DNA of 59,871 nucleotides from Clostridiales bacterium (GTDB taxonomy: Bacteria > Bacillota > Clostridia > Lachnospirales > Lachnospiraceae): contig JAMPHY010000018.1 in NCBI GenBank assembly GCA_023663185.1, positions 1 to 59,871 on the forward strand. Reading direction: 5' to 3'. The notes beneath the pieces were generated by a model. That model was not told the DNA's origin, searched no databases, and worked only from the letters and a program-made list of their open reading frames with translations. Below are positions 38,047 to 56,610 of this stretch, one piece after another. Numbering within the stretch: the first letter of the stretch is position 1; every line of letters starts with the position of its first letter. A program made the position numbers and the translations under genes.

Positions 38047-38082
38047 ACAAAATTAACATAATTGGAAACAAAATTAACATAA
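38047..38082 (+). promoter_or_regulatory. Tandem LytTR-like boxes upstream of the LytTR regulator
   Basis: The 15-mer ACAAAATTAACATAA occurs at 38047-38061 and again, unchanged, at 38068-38082, a 21-bp period. On the other strand each contains TATGTTAAT, which fits the LytTR half-site consensus (WMMGTTNRK) at 8 of 9 positions. Two such half-sites 21-22 bp apart are what LytTR domains bind. They end near the place of the -35 for the -10 at 38103, an activator position. Confidence 0.7.
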
Positions 38083-38102
38083 CGAAAAAGAAGAAATCAT
38101 AC

Positions 38103-38108
38103 TATAAT
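38103..38108 (+). promoter_or_regulatory. -10 element of the signalling operon
   Basis: A perfect TATAAT with no recognisable -35 (TAACGA at 38080-38085). Lack of a -35 and the adjoining LytTR-like boxes suggest activator-dependent initiation about 90 bp before the regulator gene. Confidence 0.6.
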
Positions 38109-38200
38109 GAATTATTGTAGATAACTATGCTTATTAGTTTATTAATAAATTTTTACGTTTATATTTAATGTTTATAAGTCTGTGCGAAGGAGGGATACCT

Positions 38201-38902
38201 ATGCGGATAGCGGTCTGCGACGACTGTGCTGAAGATGCGTTGTTTCTTAAAAAATGTCTGTCGGGGCATGAGGTCAGCGTGTATTCGGGTGCGGACGGTC
38301 TTTTGGCAGACATGGACAAGACGCCATATGACTTATACCTGCTGGACATTTTTATGGGGGACTCTATGGACGGGATTGAACTTGCCAAGAGGCTGCGGGA
38401 AGCCAATGAAGATGCGGCAATCTGCTTTACTTCCAGCAGTAATGAATTTTACAGGGAAGCTTATGATTTATATGCCATACAATATCTGATTAAACCCGTA
38501 CAGGAGGAAGATTTGAATAAACTTCTTCTTAAGGTGCAGAAAAACCTTGAGCATGAAGGTGGGAAGAAGCTCTCATACTCATGGCGTGGGAAGGTCGGTT
38601 CGGTTCCCTATGGGAAAATCCGCTATATCAGCAGCAGGGGGCACACTCTGTCTATATACTGTACGGACGGGAGTATTAAGGAAAGCGCGGGAAAGTTGAG
38701 TGATTTGGAGAAACAGGCGTGCGGGGAAATCCTTATGCGGTGCCACCAGAGCTTTATCGTCAACTTAAACCGTGTGGAAGGTTTGGACGGTACGGATTTG
38801 ATAATAGCAGGAGAGAGAATACCGATATCCAGACGCTACTATGATGAGGTTAGAAAAAGATATCGGGAAACCTTGTTTGATAAGGTATTTGAGAAACGAT
38901 AA
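38201..38902 (+). CDS. LytTR-family response regulator
   Basis: A 233-residue regulator: receiver domain (1-120) with acidic pocket Asp 7/Asp 8, phospho-acceptor Asp 49 in YLLDIF, Thr in CFTSSS and Lys in YLIKPV; then a LytTR DNA-binding domain (about 135-233; GKIRYISSRGHTLSIYC, MRCHQSFIVNL, IPISRRYY). No histidine kinase is adjacent, so it is an orphan. It starts the operon that continues with a chemoreceptor, and the two LytTR-like boxes upstream suggest it activates its own operon. AAGGAGGG precedes the ATG at 38201; an ATG at 38168 lacks a site. Confidence 0.93.
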   Translation: MRIAVCDDCAEDALFLKKCLSGHEVSVYSGADGLLADMDKTPYDLYLLDIFMGDSMDGIELAKRLREANEDAAICFTSSSNEFYREAYDLYAIQYLIKPVQEEDLNKLLLKVQKNLEHEGGKKLSYSWRGKVGSVPYGKIRYISSRGHTLSIYCTDGSIKESAGKLSDLEKQACGEILMRCHQSFIVNLNRVEGLDGTDLIIAGERIPISRRYYDEVRKRYRETLFDKVFEKR

Positions 38903-38916
38903 GGAGATAAAAATTC

Positions 38917-40920
38917 ATGGACAATAAAGATGGACAGAAGAAAATCATAACGTTTGGAATCCGTACAAAATTAATCGTGGTCATTATTCCTATTGTGCTG
39001 GTTATTATTATAACGTTTTTCGGACTTTCACGAAAAATGATTACAAGTATTTCAGAGCAGAATCTTGCCGCTAATGCAAAAGTCTGTGCAGGTGATATTT
39101 ACGCATGGACAGATCGGATCTTTGGCGAGCTTCAGGTCTATAAGGATACGATTGAAGAAGGCGGATTTGCTAACGATGAAGAGGTGCTTGCATTTATGGA
39201 GACTTCTTTTGAAAAGAGTGATGCTTATCCGGTGGGATTGTATATGGGTGATGACCGGGGAGTGTATTTAGATGCGTCAGGTTGGGTGCCGGGTGACGAC
39301 TGGGTTTTGACGGAACGGGATTGGTATCTTGACGGAAAGGAAAATGAGGAGATTGCTTTTGGGGAGCCGTATTACGATTCACAGACAGGCGATATCTGCG
39401 TCAGCGCTGCTGTGCGCATGGGAAATACTGATGCAGTCAGGGTACTTGCCGTAGACGTATATCTGAATTATCTTTCTGAGGTTGTATCGAATATTGAGGG
39501 AAGCGGCGGAATCAGCTCGTTCTTAGTGACAAAGGAAAGCCGGACGATTATTGCGCACCCGAATACCGATATGATAGCGCGCACGCTTTCTGATTCGGAC
39601 TTGAATGAATTGTATGCAGCTATCGGGAAGGAAATTGGAAATCAGAAAGCCGGTGCAGATGATTTCTTTTCTGTGCAGGGTTATTTTGTATGTTTGAATG
39701 AAATTGACGGGACGGATTGGGTTTTAGTCAGCTATATGTCCAGAAGCGAGGCACTTGCGGGATTACATCGGCTGGAGATAATTATGATAGTGATTGCTGC
39801 GGCTGCTGCGGCAGTGCTGATTTTTGCGACATTTAACTTGATGAACCGCGTTGTAAAACCGGTAGGGCGCATTACAGATGTCATACAGAATGTAGCGCAA
39901 GGTGATTTTTCACAGACGGTTGAAGTTAAAGGAAAAGATGAGATTGCTGTTATGAGTGCGCATATGCAGGAATTTTTGACACAGATGCGCACGACGATAT
40001 CCGATATTATCGGTATCGCGCAATGGCTGGAGCGTCAGTCGGTGGAGAATGGCCATGTGTCAGGCTCACTGACCGGTTCTTCTAAAAGCCAGTCGGAAGC
40101 AATGGAAGCTCTTGGACAGATTGTAAAAGAACTGTCTGAAGCGGCTAGGGGAGTATCCGAACAGATGGAGATGCTTTCCGAAGTTATCAAAGAGGCGGAC
40201 TCAGAGGGCAGGCGCGCAGGTTTAGTTATGCGTCAGACGGTGGATATCTCGGCGAACGGAAGAGAAGCGGCGGAGCGTGTCAGCGAAAGTATGCGCCATA
40301 TTGAAGAAAGCATATCTTCCCTTGCGGAGCAGATGATGAAGACGGATACTGCGATGGAGCAGATTGGCAGTATGGTGGAGATGATTGTCAATGTTGCGGA
40401 GGAAACGAATCTTCTGTCTTTAAATGCTTCTATTGAGGCGGCACGTGCGGGTGAGGCAGGAAAAGGATTTGCGGTTGTAGCGGACCAGATTGGAAAACTT
40501 GCAGCAAATAGCGGTGACGCGGCAGATGATATTTCCAGATTGACGTCGGAGATTAAGGAGGCTATGCAGCGCGCCATTGCCAAGACGAAGGAAAGTGTTG
40601 TGGAGGTAAAGACAAGCGCGGAGCTGGTCGGCGCGAACAGGGAAACTTTTGATATGGTGTACGAAAAGGTGGGAGAGACGGATACTGCGGTGGAGCGCAT
40701 GGTGCAATTGGTCGGAAGGACAGAAGAAGTTGCAGGAAATATGCACAAAATCGCTGATTATCAAGTGCAGGAAATGGAGCGGATTACTCAGTCGGCGCAG
40801 GAACTGGAAGGTTATACCGAAACGGTAACTCAGGACAGTGATATTGTAGCCCGTAACGCGAAGGAATTAGAGCGGGAAGCAAAGAAACTGATGGAGAGAA
40901 TGAGGGTGTTCAGGATATAG
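38917..40920 (+). CDS. Methyl-accepting chemotaxis protein with dCache-type sensor
   Basis: A 667-residue chemoreceptor: transmembrane helix (about 17-40), an extracytoplasmic sensor of about 240 residues with Cache-type signatures ([45 protein letters not shown]), second helix (about 288-310), HAMP (about 310-365), and a cytoplasmic signalling bundle with hairpin tip [18 protein letters not shown]. Cache domains bind small molecules such as amino acids directly. AAGGAG lies before the ATG at 38917, 15 bp after the LytTR gene. Its position among a transporter and partner-switch proteins suggests it senses the same solute. Whether it feeds flagellar chemotaxis is not shown here. Confidence 0.94.
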
Positions 40921-40935
40921 GAGGTTATAGGGAAA

Positions 40936-43671
40936 ATGAGACAAAAAAGAATGAAGAAGGCGGCATGGCTAATCGGGCTTATGCTGTTTGTTGTCATGGT
41001 TTTTACAGGCTGTGCCGGCAGCGAAAAGGAAACAGAGGTTTACCGGTCGTTCTCAGATTTTAACGGGAAAACTATTGGCGTTCTTACGGGCTCGCTCTAT
41101 GACCAAGTGCTAGGAGATAAGTTTGAAAATCTTAACTACAATTACTATGACGACCTTACGACGCAGCTTGAGGCGTTGAAAAAAGGTGATGTGGAGGCGC
41201 TTGCCTTAGACAGTCCGGTGGCGCAGATGGCTGCGGCACAAAGACCAGATGAGTTTGCAATATTTCCGGAGATTATATCAAGTGATGCGTATAGCATGAT
41301 GTTGAAAAAGGGGAGTGCGCTGACTGATAAGGTATCCGGCGTTATCCGTGAGATTAAGGCAGAGGGAGTCATTGACAAACTGGCGGACAAATGGCTGGGC
41401 GGCGACGAGGAAGCCATGCAGATTGACTGGACGCAGTATAACTTATCTAAGCGTGCGAATGGGACGCTGCGCTTTGCCTTTGACGGAACGAATATGCCGA
41501 TGTTGTACATAGGCAGCGACGGCAACCCGTCCGGCTTTGAGACGGAGCTTGTGCTTATAATTGCGGACAGGCTTGATATGGGCGTGGAGTTGATTGAGAC
41601 GAAATTCGCCTCGCTTGTTCCATTTATACAGCAGGATAAGGCGGATATTGCGGCATGTTGTATCATTGTAACTGCGGAACGCGCCGAGAGCGTGGATTTC
41701 TGTGAGTCTTATTATTCGGGGGGCACGGTTTTTTTATGCAGAACCGAAAGCTTAGAGGGCGTATCAGGGACGCTTGACTTAAACAGCACTTCGGCAACGA
41801 TTGCCGTGGAGACGGGCGCGAGTGCTGGAAAGGGTATTTTTGCAGGAATAGCGCAGAGCTTTGAAAAGACCTTTGTGCGTGAAAACCGTTGGAAGCTGAT
41901 TGTGGACGGACTTTTAGTTACGCTTGAGATTACTGTGCTTGCTGGAATTTTCGGGACGGTTCTGGGATTTTTACTCTGTCTGTGGCTGCGCTGTAAGAAC
42001 CGCTTCCTTGCGGGGCTTGCAAGGGTGATATGCAGGCTGATGGAGGGTATACCAAGTCTTGTTGTGCTGATGATTATTTATTTTGTAGTGTTTGCTTCGG
42101 TTAAGATTGAGCCTGTGACGGTCGGGATTATCTCTTTTTCCCTGATTTTTGCAGTGGCAGTCGCGGGGATTTTGAATACCGGCATAGAGACGGTAGATGC
42201 AGGGCAGTGGGAGGCAGCTACGGCGCTTGGTTTTAGCAGGGGTAAAACTTTTATCCGTATTATTCTGCCGCAGGCGGTAAGGAGTGTTCTTCCTATTTAC
42301 AGGGGTGAGTTCGTCACCATGTTGAAGCTGACTTCTATCGTGGGATATATTTCGATTGAGGATTTGACGAAGGCGGGGGATATTATCCGCAGTCGTACCT
42401 ATGAGGCGTTTTTCCCGTTGCTTGCGACTGCTGCGATATATTTTTTGATTTCCGTAATTTTCGCCTTTTTAATTGGAAGGGTTGAGCTTAAGCTTGACGT
42501 GAAACGGAAGCCGAGGGCGTACCCTAAAGGCGTAGATGTGATGTCAGTATATGTGGAAAAAGAGGAAACCGCGTCGTATGAGGCGTCTGAGCTGATTACG
42601 GTAGAGCATTTAAAGAAGGAATTTATAGGCGCAACTCCGTTAAAAGATGTAAATGCGCAGATTAAGCGGGGAGAGGTCATTACCATTATCGGTCCCTCCG
42701 GTACGGGAAAGTCTACTTTTCTGCGCTGCCTGAACCGGCTCGAAGAGCCGACGGGCGGTAAGGTTTGTGTATTCGGCGAGGACATGGGGAGAAAGGAAAC
42801 GAACCTGAACGCTTTAAGAGAGCGAATGGGTATGGTATTCCAGAGCTTTAACCTTTTCCCACATTTGACAGTTATTGAGAATATCATGCTGGCGCCAACG
42901 CTCTTAAAGGGCGAGGGACGGCAGGAAGCGTATGAATATGGAATGTATCTGTTGAAAACGGTAGGACTGGCGGAGAAAGCCCTTTCTTATCCGGACGAGC
43001 TTTCCGGCGGGCAGAAGCAGAGGGTGGCTATTGCAAGGACACTTGCCATGAGACCGGAAATTGTGCTGTTTGACGAGCCAACGAGCGCGTTAGATCCGAC
43101 GATGGTAGGCGAGGTTCTCTCCGTTATCAGACAACTGGCGGCAGGCGGGCTTACCATGATGATTGTTACCCATGAAATGCAGTTTGCAAGAGACGTCAGC
43201 ACGCGAATTTTTTATATGGATCAGGGTGAAATATATGAGGAAGGCACGCCGGAGGAAATTTTTGATTCACCGCAGCGGGAGCAGACGAGGGCATTTGTGA
43301 AGCGCTTAAAAGCGTTGACGTTTACGATTTCTTCTCCTGAATATGATTTCATCGCCATGAGCGAGCAGCTAAGAAGCTTTGGAGAAAAGCAGTTCCTAAG
43401 CCAGCGGCAGACGGAAAACTTAAGGCGTGTGTTTGAGGAGGTTTGTGCGCTTAATATCATTCCGAACCGAAAAGGGAATTATATGCTGGAGATATCCGTA
43501 CAGTATTACGAGGCGGACGGCGCGCTGACTATGAGCTTTGTCTGGGGCGGCGCACCGTACAATCCTTTAGAAAGCGGCGACGAGATTTCGATTAAGCTGG
43601 TAATGGCAGCAATCAAGGAAAGCCGTTATGGGTACGAGAGGGGTAAGAACCGCTTAGAGATTTCTTTATAG
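40936..43671 (+). CDS. One-piece ABC importer (binding lobes + permease + ATPase) with degenerate HATPase tail
   Basis: A 911-residue polyprotein. Order: lipoprotein signal with lipobox FTGC (Cys 26); a first SBP_bac_3 segment (about 35-160) that matches the second lobe of such proteins (FNGKTIGVLTGS, GDVEALALDSPVA); a second segment (about 175-275) that matches the first lobe (NPSGFETELVLIIADRL, TAERAESVDF); a polar-amino-acid-type permease (about 305-520) with EAA loop WEAATALGFSRGKTFIRIILP; an ATPase (about 560-795) with GPSGTGKST, LSGGQKQR, LFDEPTSALDP and THEMQ; and a 115-residue tail (about 797-911). The tail follows the pattern of RsbW-type HATPases, including APYNP where GEPFEP is expected, but lacks the Asp and Gly residues needed for ATP. 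Ligand probably a polar amino acid. GGAGG precedes the ATG at 40936. Confidence 0.88.
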   Translation: MRQKRMKKAAWLIGLMLFVVMVFTGCAGSEKETEVYRSFSDFNGKTIGVLTGSLYDQVLGDKFENLNYNYYDDLTTQLEALKKGDVEALALDSPVAQMAAAQRPDEFAIFPEIISSDAYSMMLKKGSALTDKVSGVIREIKAEGVIDKLADKWLGGDEEAMQIDWTQYNLSKRANGTLRFAFDGTNMPMLYIGSDGNPSGFETELVLIIADRLDMGVELIETKFASLVPFIQQDKADIAACCIIVTAERAESVDFCESYYSGGTVFLCRTESLEGVSGTLDLNSTSATIAVETGASAGKGIFAGIAQSFEKTFVRENRWKLIVDGLLVTLEITVLAGIFGTVLGFLLCLWLRCKNRFLAGLARVICRLMEGIPSLVVLMIIYFVVFASVKIEPVTVGIISFSLIFAVAVAGILNTGIETVDAGQWEAATALGFSRGKTFIRIILPQAVRSVLPIYRGEFVTMLKLTSIVGYISIEDLTKAGDIIRSRTYEAFFPLLATAAIYFLISVIFAFLIGRVELKLDVKRKPRAYPKGVDVMSVYVEKEETASYEASELITVEHLKKEFIGATPLKDVNAQIKRGEVITIIGPSGTGKSTFLRCLNRLEEPTGGKVCVFGEDMGRKETNLNALRERMGMVFQSFNLFPHLTVIENIMLAPTLLKGEGRQEAYEYGMYLLKTVGLAEKALSYPDELSGGQKQRVAIARTLAMRPEIVLFDEPTSALDPTMVGEVLSVIRQLAAGGLTMMIVTHEMQFARDVSTRIFYMDQGEIYEEGTPEEIFDSPQREQTRAFVKRLKALTFTISSPEYDFIAMSEQLRSFGEKQFLSQRQTENLRRVFEEVCALNIIPNRKGNYMLEISVQYYEADGALTMSFVWGGAPYNPLESGDEISIKLVMAAIKESRYGYERGKNRLEISL

Positions 43672-43698
43672 AATACAAATATGGAAGAGGGACAGAAG

Positions 43699-45384
43699 AT
43701 GAGCAAAAAAAAGAAGCTATCTATATTGTGTATATGTGCGGCTGTTCTATTGGCAGTCGGGCTGTCAGCCTTTTTTGGCAGCACACGAAGGGAAGAAAAC
43801 AGTAATATATATATCCTTTATACCAATGACGTCCATTGTGCTGTGGACGGGAATATGGGGTACGCCGAGCTTACAGCTTACAGAGAATCGCTTGAGGAGA
43901 GCTCGCCTTATGTGACGCTGGTGGATTGCGGCGACGCCATTCAGGGAGATGCTCTTGGCACCGTGTCGGACGGGGAATATCCGGTGGAACTTATGAATAA
44001 GGTCGGCTACGACTATGCGGTGCTAGGCAACCATGAGTTTGACTATGGCATGGAGCAGCTTGCCAAATTGCTGGAGTTTTCAGAAGCAGAGTATCTTGGC
44101 TGTAATATCACTTATTCCGGAACCGGAGAAAATAAGCTCTCCGTGGTAAAACCCTATGCCATTCAGAAATATGGGAATGTGGAAGTAGCATTTATCGGGG
44201 TGTCTACGCCGGAGACTATTCTTTCATCGACGCCCTCTGTATTTATGGACGAGAACGGTGAGTATGTATATGGCTTTAGCGCAGAAGATGAAGAGACATT
44301 TTATGCCACAGTGCAGGAAAGCATTGACGACTGCTTAAAAGAAGGCGCCGATTATGTGGTTTTACTTACGCATCTGGGAACGGACGAGGTCTCTAAGCCC
44401 TTCCGTTCGGTTGATTTGATTATGGGAACTACGGGCGTGGATGCCGTGTTAGACGGACATTCCCATAGCACGATTCCCTGTGAATATGTGAAAAACAAGG
44501 AAGAAGAGTTAGTACTTTTATCTTCCACCGGAGAAAAGCTTGACGCAATCGGACAGCTTATGATTACGCCTAAAGGACAAATAGTGTCCACCTTGATTAC
44601 GGGCTATCCGCAAGAAGATGATGAAATGGCTTCCTGTGTGGAGGATATTCAGTTAAGATATGAAGCTACGCTTAACGAGATTATAGGCAGCAGCGGCGTG
44701 GCGCTGACGATTGTAGGTTCAGATGGCGTGCGGCTTGTTCGCAGCAGGGAAACAAATCTGGGAGATTTCTGCACAGATGCGTACAGGGAGGTTGCCGGAG
44801 CGGATATTGCCTTTATCAATGGCGGCGGTATCAGGGCGGATATTGAGGCAGGCGATATCACTTATGGAGACATTATTGCGGTACACCCGTATGGGAATAC
44901 GCTTTGCATGGTATGGGCAAGCGGACAGGAGATATTAGATTGTCTGGAAATGTCATGTTCACAGATGATGGCTGAGGTTTCAGAGGCAGGGAACGCCATC
45001 GGAGAAAACGGCGGCTTTCAGCAGGTGTCGGGGCTGCGCTTCATGGTTGATTTATCGGTAGAGTCCTCTGTTATAACAGACGAAAACGGTATGTTTGTAT
45101 CGGTGGAAGGAGAACGGCGCGTAAAAGATGTGGAAGTGCTTCAGAAAGATGGAAGCTATCAGGCAATCGAGCCTGATAAGATGTATAAAGTGGCGTCTCA
45201 CAACTATCTGTTGAAGGAAGGTGGGGACGGCTTGAATATGTTTACAGATAATCAGTTCATAATTGATGAGGGAATGTCAGATTATCAGGTTTTAAGCACA
45301 TACATAAGGGAGCATTTAGGCGGAACAATCGGGGACGAATATAGCAAAGAACAGGGACGTATTAAAGTGTTATCCGACAAGTAA
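43699..45384 (+). CDS. Cell-surface 5'-nucleotidase / UDP-sugar hydrolase family
   Basis: A 561-residue bifunctional metallophosphatase: signal or anchor helix (about 6-28), calcineurin-like domain (about 35-310) with YTNDVHC, DCGDAIQGD, LGNHEFDYG and the later GHSHS, and 5'-nucleotidase C-terminal domain (about 350-530) with LGDFCTDAYR and INGGGIRADIEAG for base stacking. It should act outside the membrane, removing phosphate from nucleotides or related compounds. I chose the ATG at 43699 with GAGGG upstream. It sits 27 bp after the ABC polyprotein, inside the signalling operon, so its product may supply the transporter or modify the signal. Confidence 0.92.
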   Translation: MSKKKKLSILCICAAVLLAVGLSAFFGSTRREENSNIYILYTNDVHCAVDGNMGYAELTAYRESLEESSPYVTLVDCGDAIQGDALGTVSDGEYPVELMNKVGYDYAVLGNHEFDYGMEQLAKLLEFSEAEYLGCNITYSGTGENKLSVVKPYAIQKYGNVEVAFIGVSTPETILSSTPSVFMDENGEYVYGFSAEDEETFYATVQESIDDCLKEGADYVVLLTHLGTDEVSKPFRSVDLIMGTTGVDAVLDGHSHSTIPCEYVKNKEEELVLLSSTGEKLDAIGQLMITPKGQIVSTLITGYPQEDDEMASCVEDIQLRYEATLNEIIGSSGVALTIVGSDGVRLVRSRETNLGDFCTDAYREVAGADIAFINGGGIRADIEAGDITYGDIIAVHPYGNTLCMVWASGQEILDCLEMSCSQMMAEVSEAGNAIGENGGFQQVSGLRFMVDLSVESSVITDENGMFVSVEGERRVKDVEVLQKDGSYQAIEPDKMYKVASHNYLLKEGGDGLNMFTDNQFIIDEGMSDYQVLSTYIREHLGGTIGDEYSKEQGRIKVLSDK

Positions 45385-45413
45385 AGATAGTGTCAAAAAT
45401 GGAGGAGAAGAAA

Positions 45414-45713
45414 ATGACGATTACAAAAACGACTGCTGGAAATGAAATGACCATCAAGACGGTGGGAAGGCTGGACACGACAACGGCTCCTGAACTGGAT
45501 GCGGAATTAAAGAAATCACTTGAAGGAGTGAAAAAGCTGATTATGGATTTTTCAGAATTAGAGTATATTTCTTCCGCAGGACTCCGCGTAATATTTTCTG
45601 CGCAGAAGGTCATGGACAGACAGGGGGAAATGGTAATCAGGGGCGCAAATGAAGATGTGCTGGAAGTATTCGATGTGACAGGCTCCCTTGATATACTGAC
45701 ACTTGAGCAGTAA
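45414..45713 (+). CDS. STAS-domain anti-sigma-factor antagonist (RsbV/SpoIIAA-like)
   Basis: A 99-residue single STAS domain: GRLDTTTAPELDAEL, then YISSAGLRVI with Ser 54 at the position phosphorylated in RsbV and SpoIIAA. In partner switching a kinase of the RsbW type phosphorylates this Ser and a PP2C phosphatase removes it; the next gene encodes both activities in one protein. GGAGGAG lies six bases before the ATG at 45414; an upstream GTG at 45390 overlaps that site. No sigma factor lies nearby, so its target is open. Confidence 0.93.
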   Translation: MTITKTTAGNEMTIKTVGRLDTTTAPELDAELKKSLEGVKKLIMDFSELEYISSAGLRVIFSAQKVMDRQGEMVIRGANEDVLEVFDVTGSLDILTLEQ

Positions 45714-45737
45714 TGGCGGCGGGAGGAAGATAAAATT

Positions 45738-47504
45738 ATGGAGAAGCATACAGGACAAGCGGCAGATTACAATCTGTTCCTTGAGAATGAGTGGGAAGCG
45801 AACAGGTATGCTGCCAGATGTATCGGAATCGTTTCGCTGGTTGCCATACTGTGCTGGATTTTGGATATTGTGGGGATTTTTATCACGCCAAAAGTAATCA
45901 TGAATACGGCGATGCCCATATTTTTAGCGTTTTCCATTCTGCCCGCTTTCATTTGCAGGTTAGATAAGGCATGGGTAAAATATGCGGTCATGTGCTGTTC
46001 GATTAGCGGAATATTCATACTGTCCTGTGCAATTTCAAAGCATATGGTGGTTGCGTGGATGCTGCCGCTTATTTTAAGCTGTCATTATTATTCCAAAAAG
46101 CTGACGCGGTTTGTATTGATTCTGTCAGTGGTATTGTTTTCTGCCTCAATCTATATAGCTATGTACTTCGGAGAGTGGGATCAGACGCTTTTAGATATGC
46201 CTTATTATTCCGGCGAGCGTGTTATTACGGGCAGGCTTTTATTAGAGAATACCTTGTTTTTTGTCCTTCCAAGAACCTTGATTTTAATCGGTGCACACGC
46301 TGTTTGTATGACGATTGCAGGACGGACGAGGAATCTTTTGGAGAAACAGGCAAAGGACAATGAGGAACGTCAGCGCACAGCGGCGGAGCTTGATGTGGCA
46401 ACCCGCATACAGACGTCTATGCTGCCCTGTATTTTCCCTGCTTTTCCGGAACGGCAGGAGTTTGATATTTATGCGTCGATGACGCCGGCAAAGGAGGTAG
46501 GCGGTGATTTTTATGATTTCTTTCTGGTGGACGAAACGCGGCTTGCGATTGTGATAGCAGATGTATCAGGTAAGGGGGTTCCGGCTGCGCTGTTTATGAT
46601 GGTGGCGAAAAATCTGTTAAATAACGCTGCACAGGCGGGGCTTTCACCTGATAAGGCGTTAGAAAAGGTGAATAACCAGTTGTGTGAGAATAATGATGCG
46701 GAAATGTTTGTAACCTGCTTTATGGGGATTGCGGATATAAAGGAAGGAAAGCTCTTTTTTGCGAACGCAGGACACAATCCGCCGCTGCTTCGTCATAATG
46801 GCGGGAAATTTGAATTTTTGAAGTTTAAACCCGGCTTTGTACTCGGAGAGTTCGGCAATCTTCATTATCGCATAGGGGAGACGGATTTTGTGCCGGGTGA
46901 TGAAATTTTTCTGTATACGGACGGAGTTACGGAAGCGACTAATGCAAGGCAGCAGATGTATGGCAATGAAAGGCTTCTTACGGTACTAAATTGCTCTAAG
47001 GGGAAAGCTGCGAAGGAACTGTGTACTGACGTGAAAGCGGACGTAGATGGATTTGTGGGGGACGCGCCGCAGTTCGACGATATGACGATGCTTCATTTGA
47101 AGCTGCTTTTTATAAACTCTGTTACGGTCGCTCCCACGCTGGAGAGCATGGCGGAGGTTTCCGCTTTTGTAGAAGACGTTTTGCAAAAAAACCATGTGCC
47201 GCACAAAATTATTATCAAGCTGAATATTGCGGTGGACGAGATTTTTTCCAATATTGTACGTTACAGCAAGGCAAAAAGCGCAGAAGTGGCGTGTAATGTG
47301 GAAGAAAGTCAGGTGTGCCTTACGTTTACGGATAACGGCGAGCCTTTCGAACCGACAAAGAAAGCCGCTCCGGACGCGGCAGTCATAGAAAATTCCCGCG
47401 AAGAAGGCGGCATGGGCATCTATATTGTAAAAAATTTTATGGACGCGGTGGAGTATGTTTATGAAGGCGGTCATAATGTTTTAAAGCTTACGAAAAAACT
47501 ATAA
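45738..47504 (+). CDS. Membrane PP2C (SpoIIE/RsbU-type) phosphatase fused to an RsbW-like HATPase
   Basis: A 588-residue protein: a membrane domain of about six helices (about 28-200), a short coiled coil, a SpoIIE-type PP2C phosphatase (about 220-440) with EVGGDFYDFF, IADVSGKGVPAALFM, ANAGHNPPLL, LYTDGVTEA and FDDMTML, so all metal ligands are present, and a C-terminal HATPase (about 450-588) with N box AVDEIFSNIVRY, G1 DNGEPFEP and G2 GGMGIYIVKNF. It can in principle both phosphorylate and dephosphorylate the STAS protein encoded 24 bp upstream. GGGAGGAAG precedes the ATG at 45738. The membrane domain may receive a signal from the transporter or a ligand. Confidence 0.93.
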   Translation: MEKHTGQAADYNLFLENEWEANRYAARCIGIVSLVAILCWILDIVGIFITPKVIMNTAMPIFLAFSILPAFICRLDKAWVKYAVMCCSISGIFILSCAISKHMVVAWMLPLILSCHYYSKKLTRFVLILSVVLFSASIYIAMYFGEWDQTLLDMPYYSGERVITGRLLLENTLFFVLPRTLILIGAHAVCMTIAGRTRNLLEKQAKDNEERQRTAAELDVATRIQTSMLPCIFPAFPERQEFDIYASMTPAKEVGGDFYDFFLVDETRLAIVIADVSGKGVPAALFMMVAKNLLNNAAQAGLSPDKALEKVNNQLCENNDAEMFVTCFMGIADIKEGKLFFANAGHNPPLLRHNGGKFEFLKFKPGFVLGEFGNLHYRIGETDFVPGDEIFLYTDGVTEATNARQQMYGNERLLTVLNCSKGKAAKELCTDVKADVDGFVGDAPQFDDMTMLHLKLLFINSVTVAPTLESMAEVSAFVEDVLQKNHVPHKIIIKLNIAVDEIFSNIVRYSKAKSAEVACNVEESQVCLTFTDNGEPFEPTKKAAPDAAVIENSREEGGMGIYIVKNFMDAVEYVYEGGHNVLKLTKKL

Positions 47505-47526
47505 CGATTGCGAGGAGTAAAATAAA

Positions 47527-48654
47527 ATGAAAAGAAAATTATTTAGCGTTTTATTAAGTCTTATCTTGGCGGCAGCTTTATTGGCAGGCTGCGGCTCTGA
47601 TGGCGGTACTACGACAGACAGTGCGGGAAAAATCGGTATTTCCATGCCGACACAATCTCTGGAGCGTTGGAATCGTGACGGCGCATATCTTAACGACAAG
47701 TTCAAGGCGGCGGGTTATGAAACTATTCTTACTTTCTCAGACAATGATTCCGCAAGACAGGTAAATGATATCCAGAATATGCTTGCAGACGACGTTGATT
47801 TGCTTATTGTTGCCGCTATAGACGGCGAGGCGTTAAATACCGTCATGAATGAAGCTGCGCAGGCAGATGTTCCGGTTATCTCTTACGACCGTCTGATTTT
47901 GAACGATGCGGTTTCCTATTATGTATCTTTCGATAATTATACGGTTGGCAGACTTCAGGGGCAATTCGTGGTAGATACGCTCGACCTTGCTAATGCGGGA
48001 GATAAAGTCTACAATATAGAATTTACCGCAGGCGATCCTGCCGATAACAACGCAGGATATTTCTATAACGGCGCTATGGATACACTAAAACCCTATATCG
48101 ACCAAGGGACTTTAAATGTTGTTTCCGGACAGACGGACTTTGATACGGTTGCTACGGCACAATGGAATACCGATACGGCTCTTGAAAGGGCGCAGAACGT
48201 GCTTTCTTCCTATTATGCAGACGGAACACAGCTTGACGTATGGGTTTGCTCTAACGACTCTACCGCACTAGGCGTTGCGCAGGCTATTACCTCCGACTAT
48301 GCAGGTTCTAACTCCGTACTTATTACAGGTCAGGACGGTGATGAGGCTAATCTGAAAAATATTGTTGACGGTATTCAGACAATGACTGTTTATAAGAACG
48401 TTAGTAATGAGGCGGTTGTTACATTGGCTCTCGCGCAGGCTATTATCGCAGGCGATACTATCGATGCAGCTTTAATTGATACTCTGGAAATTGAATGCGC
48501 ATACGATACGGACTCCTATGAAACATCGGCAGGACACAAATGTCCTTCTTTCCTGCTTGTACCGAATGTAATTACCAAAGATAACTTGCAGGATTTAGTT
48601 GACACAGGCTTATACACAATGGGCGCTGATGGGTATCTGTCCGCCACTGACTAG
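47527..48654 (+). CDS. chvE: Sugar-binding lipoprotein, ChvE/multiple-monosaccharide type
   Basis: A 375-residue periplasmic-binding-protein-family lipoprotein: lipobox LAGC with Cys near 22, then a two-lobe sugar-binding fold (KIGISMPTQSLERW, DVDLLIVAAIDGEAL, VPVISYDRLI, VLITGQDGDEANL). It matches the ChvE-like proteins that bind several monosaccharides (arabinose, glucose, galactose) and feed MmsA/MmsB-type transporters. GCGAGGAG precedes the ATG at 47527. Only 22 bp separate it from the phosphatase gene, so it may belong to the same transcript. Exact sugar unknown. Confidence 0.88.
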   Translation: MKRKLFSVLLSLILAAALLAGCGSDGGTTTDSAGKIGISMPTQSLERWNRDGAYLNDKFKAAGYETILTFSDNDSARQVNDIQNMLADDVDLLIVAAIDGEALNTVMNEAAQADVPVISYDRLILNDAVSYYVSFDNYTVGRLQGQFVVDTLDLANAGDKVYNIEFTAGDPADNNAGYFYNGAMDTLKPYIDQGTLNVVSGQTDFDTVATAQWNTDTALERAQNVLSSYYADGTQLDVWVCSNDSTALGVAQAITSDYAGSNSVLITGQDGDEANLKNIVDGIQTMTVYKNVSNEAVVTLALAQAIIAGDTIDAALIDTLEIECAYDTDSYETSAGHKCPSFLLVPNVITKDNLQDLVDTGLYTMGADGYLSATD

Positions 48655-48667
48655 GAGGAGATTTCTT

Positions 48668-50203
48668 TTGGCAGATATTATTTTGGAAATGAAATCTATT
48701 ACTAAAGAGTTTTCGGGAGTAAAAGCGCTGGACAATGTAAGCATGAGCGTGGAACGGGGAGAAATCCACGCCTTAATCGGTGAAAATGGTGCAGGAAAAT
48801 CTACGCTGATGAATGTGCTGTCGGGCACCTATCCGTATGGCTCTTATATGGGAGAAATATATTATAATGGGGAATTATGCCGCTTTAAGACGCTTAGGGA
48901 CAGCGAGGCAAAGGGCATTGTCATTATTCATCAGGAGCTTGCCTTAATTCCGCTTCTTACAATCGGCGAGAATATGTTTTTAGGAAATGAGAAAAAGAAT
49001 AAACTTGGAATTATAGACTGGGACTTAACTTATAACGAAGCGGAAAAGCATATGCGGCAGGTCGGGTTAAACGACTCTGCCCAGACTTTAATCAAAGACA
49101 TAGGTACAGGTAAGCAGCAGCTTGTAGAAATTGCAAAGGCATTTTCCAAAAATGTAAAACTGCTGATTTTAGATGAACCGACTTCTTCACTAAACGACGA
49201 AGACGCGGGAATGCTTCTGGATTTATTAATGGAATTTAAGAAAAACGGACTGACTTCCATTATTATTACCCATAAATTAAATGAAATTATTTATTGCGCA
49301 GATAAGGCAACCATCATTCGAGACGGCGCCTGTATTGAAACTCTTGTAAAGGGCGTTGATGAATTTAGCGAAGACCGCATTATAAAAGGAATGGTGGGAC
49401 GTCCGATGAACGACCGCTATCCGAAGCGTGAACATAGAGAGTGTAAAGAAATTGGTCTTGAGGTGAAAAACTGGACAGTCCATCACCCGCTTTATCATGA
49501 AAAAATTGCCGTTAAAAATGTTTCTTTTAAAGTGCATAAAGGTGAAGTTGTAGGTTTCTTTGGCTTACAGGGCGCAGGACGTACAGAGCTTGCTATGTCG
49601 ATTTTCGGCAAGAGTTATGGCGGCAATATCATAGGCGAATTATATTTAGACGGCAAAAAGGTTGATTTAAAAAATCCGCAGCAGGCAATTTCCCATAAAC
49701 TAGCCTATGTAACAGAAGATAGAAAAGTCAATGGACTCATTCTTACTAAATCTGTCCGTTTCAACACAACACTTGCGAACTTGAATAAAGTCTGCTCAAA
49801 AGGCATTATCGATACAACTGCCGAGCAGAACGCCGCGGAAAATATGACAGAGGCGATGGGAACTAAAACGCCGTCAATCGAACAGGAAGTCGGTAACTTA
49901 TCCGGCGGCAATCAACAAAAGGCTCTGCTTGGCAAGTGGCTGTTTACGGAGCCGGATATTTTAATTTTGGACGAACCCACCCGCGGTATTGACGTCGGCG
50001 CCAAATATGATATTTACTGCCTGATTAATAAAATGGTAGAAGACGGTAAAGCGGTAATTATGATTTCCTCTGAAATGCCGGAATTAATCGGTATGTGCGA
50101 CCGTATCTATGTTATGAACGAAGGAGAGCTCTGCGGGGAGCTTGCTGCTAAAGACGCTACACAGGAAAAAATCATGGGTTATATCATAAACGCAAAAGAT
50201 TAA
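48668..50203 (+). CDS. mmsA: Sugar ABC transporter ATPase with two ATP-binding cassettes
   Basis: A 511-residue tandem ATPase of the RbsA/XylG/MmsA type. First cassette: Walker A GENGAGKST and Walker B ILDEPTSSL near 165. Second cassette: GLQGAGRTEL at the Walker A position, with the Lys replaced as is usual in this family, and LSGGNQQK plus ILDEPTRGID. Energises sugar import with the neighbouring binding protein and permease. I place the start at TTG 48668, nine bases after AGGAGGAG; upstream codons overlap the previous gene and have no site. Confidence 0.93.
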   Translation: MADIILEMKSITKEFSGVKALDNVSMSVERGEIHALIGENGAGKSTLMNVLSGTYPYGSYMGEIYYNGELCRFKTLRDSEAKGIVIIHQELALIPLLTIGENMFLGNEKKNKLGIIDWDLTYNEAEKHMRQVGLNDSAQTLIKDIGTGKQQLVEIAKAFSKNVKLLILDEPTSSLNDEDAGMLLDLLMEFKKNGLTSIIITHKLNEIIYCADKATIIRDGACIETLVKGVDEFSEDRIIKGMVGRPMNDRYPKREHRECKEIGLEVKNWTVHHPLYHEKIAVKNVSFKVHKGEVVGFFGLQGAGRTELAMSIFGKSYGGNIIGELYLDGKKVDLKNPQQAISHKLAYVTEDRKVNGLILTKSVRFNTTLANLNKVCSKGIIDTTAEQNAAENMTEAMGTKTPSIEQEVGNLSGGNQQKALLGKWLFTEPDILILDEPTRGIDVGAKYDIYCLINKMVEDGKAVIMISSEMPELIGMCDRIYVMNEGELCGELAAKDATQEKIMGYIINAKD

Positions 50204-50223
50204 TGGAGAGGAGACTTATTATA

Positions 50224-51417
50224 ATGTCAGCTAACAAAGAAACTACGGGCGGGCGCCAATTTAACTTAGGAGCATTTTTAACAAAAAATAGTATGGTTAT
50301 CGCCCTTATTATTGTATTTATTCTATTTTATTTCCTGACGGGCGGACGCCTTTTATATGCGCAGAATATGTCCAATCTGCTGCTTCAAAATGGTTATGTA
50401 TTAGTTATGGCGTGCGGTATGCTGCTTTGTATCTTAACCGGCGGCAACATTGACCTTTCTGTCGGCTCGGTTATCTGTATGGTCGGGGGTATTGCCGCAG
50501 TTTTAATTACCAACTACGGTGTTGGCATTTTCCTGACAATCCCACTCTGTATCCTTGTAGGTCTTTTGGCTGGCGTATGGCAGGGGTATTTAATCGGCTA
50601 TGTACGTATCCCGCCCTTTATTACTACGCTCGGCGGTATGTTTATCTTCCGTGGTTTTGGCCGTCTGATACTGGACAGTAAGACGGTAGCCGTTCAGGAT
50701 ACGGCATTTTTAAATATTTTTACTGCCTATATTAAAATTCCCATACTGGATACGGATACACATATTTTGTCTCCGCTTATAATTGGCGCGTTGGCGGCTG
50801 CCTTTATTTTCTACAGCACAGTTTCTTCCCGTAAAAATAAGGCAAAAAAAGGCTATAAGCAAAACAGCGCCCTTGCTGATTTTGGACGAAGCACGATTAT
50901 TTCCGTGGCTTTGTTATTTTACTGTTATTTACTCTGCCAGTATAAAGGCATTTCCGTGATGCTGGTATGGGTTGTGGCGATTTGCCTGATTTATCACTTT
51001 ATTACTTCTAAAACTGCATTCGGGCGTTATTTCTATGCGGTAGGCGGTAATGAGAAAGCGGCACAGCTTTCCGGTATTAATACGAACAAGGTTTATTTTA
51101 TAGCCTATGCAAATATGGGGCTTCTCGCCGGTTTATGCGGTCTGCTCTGTCTTGCTAGGGTAGGCTCGGTGAACGGCGCTACCGGAAGTTCTTTTGAAAT
51201 GGACGCCATCGGCGCCTGCTTTATCGGCGGCGCGTCTGCATACGGCGGCAGCGGTACGATTCCCGGCGTTATCATTGGTGCGCTTTTACTTGGCGTTATC
51301 AATATGGGTATGTCTATCATGGGTATCGGTGATTCATGGCAGTATGTCGTAAAGGGCGGCGTTCTGCTGCTTGCCGTCATCTTCGATGTAGTATCTCATC
51401 GTAAGAGTGGAAAATAG
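50224..51417 (+). CDS. mmsB: Sugar ABC transporter permease
   Basis: A 397-residue membrane protein with about ten helices of the RbsC/XylH/MmsB type. Marks are LTGGNIDLSVGSV, IPPFITTLGGMFIFRGFGRL and the C-terminal GACFIGGASAYGGSGTIPGVIIGAL. The spacing of helices with a long central cytoplasmic loop fits the multiple-monosaccharide subgroup. GGAGAGGAG stands before the ATG at 50224; the ATG at 50203 overlaps the mmsA stop but has no ribosome site. Last gene of the transporter operon. Confidence 0.93.
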   Translation: MSANKETTGGRQFNLGAFLTKNSMVIALIIVFILFYFLTGGRLLYAQNMSNLLLQNGYVLVMACGMLLCILTGGNIDLSVGSVICMVGGIAAVLITNYGVGIFLTIPLCILVGLLAGVWQGYLIGYVRIPPFITTLGGMFIFRGFGRLILDSKTVAVQDTAFLNIFTAYIKIPILDTDTHILSPLIIGALAAAFIFYSTVSSRKNKAKKGYKQNSALADFGRSTIISVALLFYCYLLCQYKGISVMLVWVVAICLIYHFITSKTAFGRYFYAVGGNEKAAQLSGINTNKVYFIAYANMGLLAGLCGLLCLARVGSVNGATGSSFEMDAIGACFIGGASAYGGSGTIPGVIIGALLLGVINMGMSIMGIGDSWQYVVKGGVLLLAVIFDVVSHRKSGK

Positions 51418-54885: not shown

Positions 54886-56610
54886 ATGGACCAAAGCAAA
54901 CAAAGCAAGCAGAAACGAGTTCCTTTTTTCAAGTCTATCAGGGGTAAAGTGACAGTATCAATGGATTTGTTTATTTTTATTCCTGTGATGGTATTGATTC
55001 TATTAATTCTTCCCAATATGAGAGACACTATGAAAGAACAGACGCAGAATTATCTGTATGATATTACCGTGGCAACCGGTGAAAAGCTGGATTTGGCGGC
55101 GGCAGTCAGCGTCGATATAAATAATATGCTGCAGCCGGAGGCTTTACAGTATATGGTGGGCAGCGTAGGTATCACAGGTATGGAGTCAAGCTACGCCTAT
55201 GTGGTATCAGCCGACGGAACCATGTTATACCACCCTACCGAATCTAAAATCGGGCAGCCGGTTGAAAATGTGGTGGTAACGGGAGTCGTCAATGAGATTA
55301 AAGCGGGAAAGAAAAATATCGAACCGCAGATAATAGAATATGATTTTAAGGGCGTAAAAAAGTATGCGGCTTATTATGTGAATGCTAATTCCGATTACAT
55401 ATTAGTTATATCGGCAGACGAAGACGAAGTGCTGGAATCGGTTACAAGGATTACGTCTATCAGCGCGGTAGTAGGTTTTTGTATAATCGTACTCTTTGGC
55501 GTTACGGGATATTTTATAGTATTGTCGCTGACTTCTCCGCTTGTTAAGGTGAACGAGATAGTCAATAAGCTTGCCGATATGGACTTTACGGAGAATGAGA
55601 TTCAGAAGAAGCTAAACAGACGTAAAGACGAGACGGGAGAGATGAGCCGTGCCGTCGGCGTGCTTCGTACTAAATTGATAGAAGTAGTAAGCGGGCTGAA
55701 AACCCAGAGCGATAACATATTAGAAGCGTCGGATTCTTTGAAGGTGAATGCAGAAGAAACGGCTGCAACGGTAGAGCAGGTGGAGAAAGCCGTATCGGAT
55801 ATTTCCGCGGGCGCAACCTCACAGGCAGATGAGACGCAGAAAGCGACTGAGAACGTTATTTTAATAGGAAACATGGTAGTTGATACTTCCAAGGAAGTTG
55901 AAAATCTGATTGTCAACGCTACGTCAATGAAGGAGTCCGGCGATAAGGCGACTTCGACGCTTTTGCAGCTTGAGAAGATTAACAAGCATGCTCAGGAAGC
56001 GATTGATATTATTTATGAACAGACCAATACGACCAATGAATCGGCTATGAAAATCAGAGAGGCTACATCGCTTATTACTTCGATTGCAGAAGAGACAAAC
56101 CTTTTATCTTTGAATGCAAGTATCGAGGCGGCAAGAGCCGGAGAGCAGGGAAGAGGCTTTGCGGTAGTTGCGTCACAAATTCAGAAGCTTGCCGAGCAGT
56201 CCAATGAATCTGCGCAGCAGATTGAAAATATTACGGATTCGTTGATTGCCGACTCAGAGAAGGCTGTAAAGACGATGGGTGAAGTCAAAGAAGTCATGAA
56301 CGAGCAGATTGAACATGTTACTAAGACTGACGCAATCTTTGCAGAGGTTAAGTCCGGAATCGACAGCTCCATAGACGGAGTAAACAGAATAGCGGAAAAG
56401 ACTAAGAAGATGGACGAAGCAAGGATTAATGTAGTTGACGTGGTACAGAATCTGACGGCAATAGCGCAGGAGAATGCAGCGAGTACGGAAGAAACTTCGT
56501 CTTCGGTTACGGAAGTCAGCAGCATTGTATATAATATTTCCGAAAATGCGTCGAGAATGAAGAACGTTGCGGACGAATTAGAGCAGAATATGAATGTATT
56601 CAAGCTGTGA
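54886..56610 (+). CDS. Methyl-accepting chemotaxis protein
   Basis: A 574-residue chemoreceptor: N-terminal helix (about 24-46), an extracytoplasmic Cache-like sensor of about 140 residues ([23 protein letters not shown]), a second helix (about 190-212), HAMP (about 212-265), and the signalling bundle with tip [23 protein letters not shown]. Shorter sensor than the receptor at 38917. AAGGAAGG precedes the ATG at 54886, 45 bp after the tmRNA gene. Stands alone between housekeeping genes. Ligand unknown. Confidence 0.94.

Follow-up and report, generated by a model that had tools for sequence, protein, structure and literature searches.

A candidate partner-switch module with a degenerate RsbW-like domain on an amino acid importer in a Lachnospiraceae genome

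We analysed a 59,871-nucleotide stretch of DNA from a member of the Lachnospiraceae (Clostridiales bacterium, assembly GCA_023663185.1, contig JAMPHY010000018.1, positions 1 to 59,871 of the forward strand; hereafter the window), focusing on a run of genes that encodes a one-piece ATP-binding cassette (ABC) importer, a STAS protein and a SpoIIE-type phosphatase joined to an HATPase_c_2 domain. The importer ends in a homologue of the anti-sigma kinases RsbW and SpoIIAB that has lost the ATP motifs, and in relatives similar domains are fused to two further transporter classes. On balance, we favour the reading that these genes form a partner-switch module with solute transport as its output, exerted by docking of the STAS protein on the dead RsbW-like tail of the importer. 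Partner switching is the textbook mode of sigma factor control, and kinases of the RsbW/SpoIIAB type normally control sporulation factors.

The importer (40936-43671, + strand) has 911 residues and carries substrate-binding, permease and ATPase parts (SBP_bac_3 at 178-273, BPD_transp_1 at 340-519, ABC_tran at 569-717), followed C-terminally by a tail of about 120 residues (residues 793-911; 43312-43668, + strand). The combination of SBP_bac_3, BPD_transp_1 and a GlnQ/HisP-type ATPase is that of polar amino acid importers; the top-scoring models for the ATPase were TcyN and GlnQ, both under their cut-offs, and its structure matches were ArtP, 4yms and HisP. An earlier reading of the letters alone (the first-pass annotation) had likened the tail to the partner-switch kinase. 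This likeness was borne out by profiles of relatives: hhalign matched a profile built from 63 ABC tails to one built from 14 intact kinase domains at an E value of 3.6e-11, and PF13581 (HATPase_c_2) matched 24 of the 63 single tails at E <= 1 (best 3.1e-7), compared with 4 for the runner-up family. The window's tail by itself had no Pfam match, and its link to HATPase domains comes from those relatives. Because iteration of the tail profile that served to call neighbours went on until it reached true kinases, the homology rests on hhalign and PF13581 and not on that profile. Searched against PDB sequences, the tail profile returned five rows, all unrelated proteins at E >= 0.093, and the intact-kinase profile found RsbW (6m36).

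The likeness did not extend to the ATP motifs. None of 66 tails kept all three motifs and 62 kept none, the G2 motif being scored as lost when fewer than two of its three glycines were present. Single motif residues were similarly scarce (N-box asparagine in 4/66, G1 aspartate in 0/66, last G2 glycine in 0/66), and the first glutamate of the N-box was retained in 65/66. These 66 include one tail broken by a frame change (L027) and one second tail (L028:3-689). All three motifs were kept by 15 of 17 single-domain kinases and by all five PP2C-fused domains, including that of the window; the two single-domain exceptions are a cut-off ABC tail (L030:3) and a degenerate single domain (L012:9608). 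Judged from its sequence, the tail is a conserved domain and a pseudokinase, probably unable to bind ATP, and because the ATP-binding motifs are lost it should not phosphorylate the STAS protein. This counts against the circuit drawn in the first-pass annotation, in which phosphorylation of STAS is governed by the state of transport or by nucleosides.

The presumed phosphorylation switch is a single-domain STAS protein (45390-45713, + strand; Pfam STAS 5.2e-15, TIGR00377 over its cut-off). A serine aligned with its Ser62 (codon 45573-45575, + strand) was present in all 33 STAS proteins shorter than 160 residues and in all 12 longer ones (45/45 together), and we take this position to be that of the SpoIIAA phospho-serine. 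The same residue had been numbered Ser54, which is correct from an ATG eight codons downstream and becomes Ser62 when counted from the annotated GTG. The next gene encodes the SpoIIE-type PP2C phosphatase with its HATPase_c_2 domain (SpoIIE-HATPase; 45738-47504, + strand; SpoIIE, PF07228, 1.5e-54 at 266-455; HATPase_c_2 1.5e-22 at 465-586); its N-terminal part is hydrophobic by eye, and it is an intact candidate for phosphorylation of the STAS protein. A search of the window's genome (94.8% complete) with PF01740 alone returned two STAS proteins, the second of which adjoins SpoIIAB and a sigma-like gene that, from position and likeness, is taken to be SigF. HATPase_c_2 scored 84 bits for SpoIIE-HATPase and 79 for SpoIIAB, with the other eight matches at 28.3 bits or less, and the SpoIIE matches were the window's own, one protein that carries a partial SpoIIE_N domain and one weak match. 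With two STAS proteins in the genome and one of them beside SpoIIAB, the window's STAS protein would therefore be left with SpoIIE-HATPase as its obvious kinase/phosphatase and with the importer tail as the obvious spare partner of the RsbW type.

The direction of phosphorylation, the docking, its effect on transport and the signal are what we infer. The SpoIIE domain would remove phosphate from Ser62, and the intact RsbW-like domain of the same polypeptide would phosphorylate the STAS protein. Once unphosphorylated, STAS would leave the real kinase and dock on the dead importer tail in the fashion of SpoIIAA on SpoIIAB. This docking would alter the activity or assembly of the importer, with either sign, as MlaB would on MlaF.

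Other STAS architectures were also found. STAS domains joined to an APH-type phosphotransferase lie near tailed importers (L012:13515-14702, L033:2596-3801, L072:7911-9095 and L130:14820-16043), and of the long STAS proteins in which the STAS domain comes first, all four tested carried an APH-type kinase. One STAS-APH protein has an additional HATPase domain (L118:1486-3090). STAS is also C-terminal in L156:3626-4879 (417 residues) and L072:18109-19464 (451 residues); at 0.01, Pfam gave no family for the N-terminal part of either protein.

The association of tailed importers with switch genes was assessed in two samples. The first consisted of the best-scoring 80 loci among the matches listed (64 tailed and 16 tail-less, of the same ABC family), with genes counted within 10 kb and flanks taken as found; LytTR was left out of the counts because its profile also catches other receivers. 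Near the 64 tailed importers, we found STAS in 24, SpoIIE in 19, kinase in 19, a symporter fusion in 15 and a MATE fusion in 8. At least one switch part or transporter-HATPase fusion was present near 34/64 tailed and 0/16 tail-less importers (Fisher p 4e-5), and the difference persisted among loci whose flanks each reached 5 kb or more (22/36 compared with 0/11; Fisher p 3e-4). Against the bias of this first scan, tails were then sought in evenly drawn genomes, and clear ABC tails occurred in 10/200 genomes of the window's family and 15/391 of its class; in a draw from the phylum, any match at 1e-6 occurred in 7/299 genomes. Of 32 places fetched, 30 were used (L131, at a contig end, and L150, with the tail out of the ATPase frame, were dropped); several are short contigs, and L119, L120, L122 and L129 are the places of L018, L013, L039 and L019 in the first sample. 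The controls were 21 tail-less paralogues: 20 tailed genomes were searched and 18 of them supplied one each, and the window's genome supplied three. Switch parts were found near 12/30 tailed importers and 0/21 tail-less paralogues (p 6e-4). Taken singly, the differences were 8 versus 0 for STAS (p 0.015), 8 versus 0 for SpoIIE (p 0.015) and 7 versus 0 for the kinase (p 0.033).

In L014, a symporter fusion, STAS, a tailed ABC importer and a nucleotidase follow one another on one strand, with 5 bp between STAS and the ABC gene. STAS directly adjoins the fused transporter in L011, L015, L062 (in the arrangement ABC, STAS, SpoIIE, kinase) and L086 as well, and stands directly beside MATE fusions in L028, L032 and L063. 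Rare co-occurrence of its genes would, by its own terms, have spoken against the first-pass annotation: the six-gene order it described was seen in none of the tabulated loci, but the core of STAS, SpoIIE and tailed ABC importer recurs. A 5'-nucleotidase was nearby in 9/64 tailed loci and 0/16 controls of the first sample, and in 4/30 and 1/21 of the independent draw (p 0.39).

Related HATPase domains, mostly degenerate, were found at the N-terminus of sodium:dicarboxylate (SDF) symporters and at the C-terminus of MATE exporters. The MATE genes of control loci (in 5/16 of the first sample and 4/21 of the second) were all free of an HATPase-like domain. SDF fusions occurred in 9/391 genomes and ABC tails in 15/391, with both in 6 (hypergeometric p 8e-8, a value that ignores kinship); the count takes no SDF fusion from G335, where the frame is broken, or from G489, where it has 143 residues, it accepts the ABC tail of G303, which a contig end truncates, and G288, G491 and G382 belong to one genus. 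For a model of the SDF domain (mean predicted local distance difference test score, pLDDT, 87.9), the best matches among solved structures were the anti-sigma kinases SpoIIAB and RsbW. A model of the importer ATPase plus tail (pLDDT 91.7, predicted template modelling score 0.68) gave the tail the order strand-helix-helix-strand-strand-helix-strand-strand, which is that of the symporter domain except for one extra four-residue helix in the latter. The solved-structure matches listed for the ATPase-plus-tail model were taken up by ABC ATPases, so this search is silent on the tail.

Since domains of the same family sit on SDF and MATE proteins of relatives, a single STAS protein could govern several transporters together. 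A wider proposal follows these lines: in Clostridia and some relatives, RsbW-like, mostly dead kinase domains would have become attached, in independent events, to ABC amino acid importers, SDF symporters and MATE exporters, and perhaps to a TauE-like membrane protein, and one phosphorylatable STAS protein, under the control of a SpoIIE/RsbW pair, would gate these several unrelated transporters together, quickly and without transcription. We regard this wider proposal as evenly balanced between right and wrong. A possible fourth transporter class is represented by two proteins of about 300 residues (L102:970-1875 and L117:895-1866) that have a weak TauE match, below the cut-off, and a C-terminal HATPase-like domain.

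Several results weigh against transport control by the STAS protein. In the independent draw, 18/30 tailed loci had no switch part in the stretch taken (at most about 10 kb per side, some cut by contig ends); there, the partner would have to act in trans. Two such loci were followed and their modules lay elsewhere in the genome: one genome, of the same genus, carries a tailed importer with the switch on a different contig (L154), and another has a cluster including a MATE fusion on a different contig (L155). The symporter and MATE fusions were each near 1/30 tailed loci and 0 controls in this draw, compared with 15/64 and 8/64 in the first, window-like sample. PF13581 matched 3/17 SDF domains at E <= 1, with a best value of 0.016, and for the fold of the ABC tail the analysis covered the order of elements in the model, beside the sequence profile. 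Co-evolution of STAS and tail beyond that with the ATPase was not detected (partial Mantel test, n = 28, partial r 0.04, p 0.35), and tail and ATPase distances correlate (r 0.81), as those of a purely structural domain would too. Finally, a sigma gene lies 8 bp from an RsbW-like kinase gene in L067, so sigma factor control may persist in part of the modules, and sigma-like genes occur at a distance in five other places (L077, L038, L039 which is L122, L069 and L138).

Among these results, the distance correlation to which STAS adds nothing and the loci that lack a nearby switch gene, together with the loss of the ATP motifs, are what would be expected if the tail were merely structural or dimer-forming and the adjacent STAS and SpoIIE genes acted on other targets; RsbW-like domains do dimerise. 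We nevertheless judge a purely structural tail to be unlikely. A domain of the same family occurs on the symporter N-terminus and on MATE exporters, several of them in the same loci as STAS, and SDF symporters and MATE exporters differ in oligomeric state. The absence of switch genes near any of the 21 tail-less paralogues also counts against it.

The sigma-like genes bear on a further alternative, in which the window's STAS protein takes part in an ordinary sigma switch in trans, its target being SpoIIAB/SigF or some unrecognised sigma factor, with the importer merely co-transcribed. SpoIIAB with its adjacent sigma-like gene is present in the genome, and the adjoining genes of L067 are of the same kind. 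This explanation appears very improbable to us, since the sporulation pair has its own adjacent STAS gene and the RsbW-like domain on the importer would be left unexplained; moreover, a small home-made sigma profile picked out no sigma-like protein from the open reading frames of the window, in agreement with the first-pass annotation. The L067 stretch itself (292-1981) comprises a short open reading frame, the sigma gene and the RsbW-like kinase gene, with a nucleotidase and a tailed importer just downstream. The cluster of L154 (2228-7312) contains STAS, an RsbW-like kinase, a hybrid histidine kinase that matches Hpt weakly, a lone receiver and a SpoIIE phosphatase, and is a two-component/partner-switch hybrid.

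The geometry of the module would be identical if the transporter were the sensor, the direction proposed in the first-pass annotation. The tail would then be a STAS sink that tracks the transport cycle, and import would titrate STAS and so change another output; flux-sensing BceAB-BceS modules offer a parallel, and the window holds importer, chemoreceptor and LytTR regulator in one operon. The loci, however, share no common output protein: a chemoreceptor lay within 10 kb of only 2/64 tailed importers (directly adjacent in one of the two, L061), a count that also leaves the chemoreceptor or gene output first proposed for the circuit unsupported, and sigma genes are sporadic. An input already exists, since several SpoIIE/PP2C proteins of relatives carry sensor parts of their own (dCache or 5TMR-LYT, and in some HAMP). 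A domain found on three unrelated transporter classes would also fit common targets better than a common sensor. We therefore hold a sensing role of the transporter to be rather unlikely, and retain control of transport through STAS docking as the preferred reading, with the earlier interpretation partly supported.

In the window, the module lies within nine co-directional genes that form one run (38168-51417): LytTR regulator, dCache chemoreceptor, ABC importer, 5'-nucleotidase, STAS, SpoIIE-HATPase, ChvE, GguA and GguB. The first six had been described as an operon ending at 47504 with gaps of 15-30 bp. All six are present as full open reading frames of the families named, as Pfam confirmed, but the gaps between them measure 14, 15, 9, 5 and 24 bp, and the run continues after a further 22 bp into the last three genes, a ChvE/GguA/GguB sugar importer in which the genes after ChvE overlap. 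A scan of 38168-51417 for consensus terminators found no site between genes and some sites inside genes, which as pattern matching is not functional evidence. The run opens with the LytTR response regulator (38168-38902, + strand; Pfam Response_reg 3.4e-13, LytTR 3e-16), followed by the dCache-HAMP chemoreceptor (38917-40920, + strand; Pfam dCache_1, HAMP, MCPsignal). As had been stated, no histidine kinase was seen among the 20 window open reading frames run on Pfam; the remaining frames were not run. The 5'-nucleotidase between importer and STAS (43681-45384, + strand) is of the UshA/Nt5e type (5_nucleotid_C 1.8e-35, Metallophos 3.9e-11) and has an N-terminal hydrophobic segment by eye.

The sugar importer genes comprise a ChvE-type sugar-binding protein (47527-48654, + strand; NCBIfam ChvE 2.1e-98, under the cut-off), whose gene starts 22 bp 3' of SpoIIE-HATPase, a GguA-type ATPase (48599-50203, + strand; NCBIfam GguA 1.4e-236, with 786 bits where the cut-off is 810), whose real start is probably further in, near 48680, and a GguB-type permease (50203-51417, + strand; NCBIfam GguB 3.2e-127, with 425 bits where the cut-off is 450). 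Because ChvE was near only 2/64 tailed loci (L014 and L015), and there on the opposite strand, the sugar importer is probably local to the window's operon. Upstream of the run lie a PD-(D/E)XK transposase-like gene and a leucine-rich repeat protein; downstream lie RNase R-like, SmpB and transfer-messenger RNA (tmRNA) genes. A second chemoreceptor gene of the window (54886-56610) comes right after the tmRNA gene.

Compared with the SpoIIAA/SpoIIAB/SpoIIE and RsbV/RsbW/RsbU switches of Bacillus, the window's system has the same conserved-serine STAS protein, HATPase_c_2 kinase and SpoIIE-type phosphatase, and SpoIIAB and RsbW are also the best structure matches of the domain grafted on the symporter. 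It differs in that the search of the window brought up no sigma-like gene, in that kinase and phosphatase share one polypeptide, and in the second, ATP-motif-less RsbW-like domain fused to transporters. Rv1364c of Mycobacterium tuberculosis is linked to sigma factor control and is not known to involve a transporter. This RsbU-RsbW fusion (3ke6) joins a phosphatase and an RsbW-type domain in one chain, as does SpoIIE-HATPase.

Two further systems pair a STAS protein with a transporter. In MlaFEDB, the STAS protein MlaB binds the ABC ATPase subunit MlaF directly and may control it, with phospho-control at Thr52 proposed, not shown; the available text mentions no RsbW-like tail, cognate kinase or phosphatase, and the transporter is of another class (PMC7367683). 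In SulP/SLC26 proteins, as outlined in the available text, a partner-switch domain is likewise carried by a transporter, but there the STAS half is fused (PMC8256260), whereas in the window it is the RsbW half that is joined to the transporter, with STAS as a separate protein. Outputs other than sigma factors are described for CapK/CapS and VapK/VapS/VapC, in which a GHKL kinase acts on a STAS substrate and phosphorylation breaks the STAS complex; these differ from the window's system in having a promoter and a PIN RNase, not transporters, as outputs and a kinase that single-stranded DNA activates, and the accessible part of the paper mentions no target pseudokinase (PMC13373217). In the open-licence PMC literature, searched by title and start of abstract, we found no description of an HATPase_c_2/RsbW domain attached to an SDF or MATE protein or to an ABC transporter for amino acids. 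The parts and partner switching itself are known; transport output through a grafted pseudokinase is the new element, which we did not find in that literature.

Orphan partner switches for which no target is known include SypA and RbaV, according to the portion of the source available (PMC8256260). If transport control through the tail is true, the module would offer a directly testable system for the targets of such orphan switches and for the phospho-control of STAS-bound ABC transporters; the domains are small enough for bench work, and cultured carriers exist, for example Blautia schinkii (L012). It would also hint at a role outside sporulation for SpoIIE-type phosphatases that carry sensor domains.

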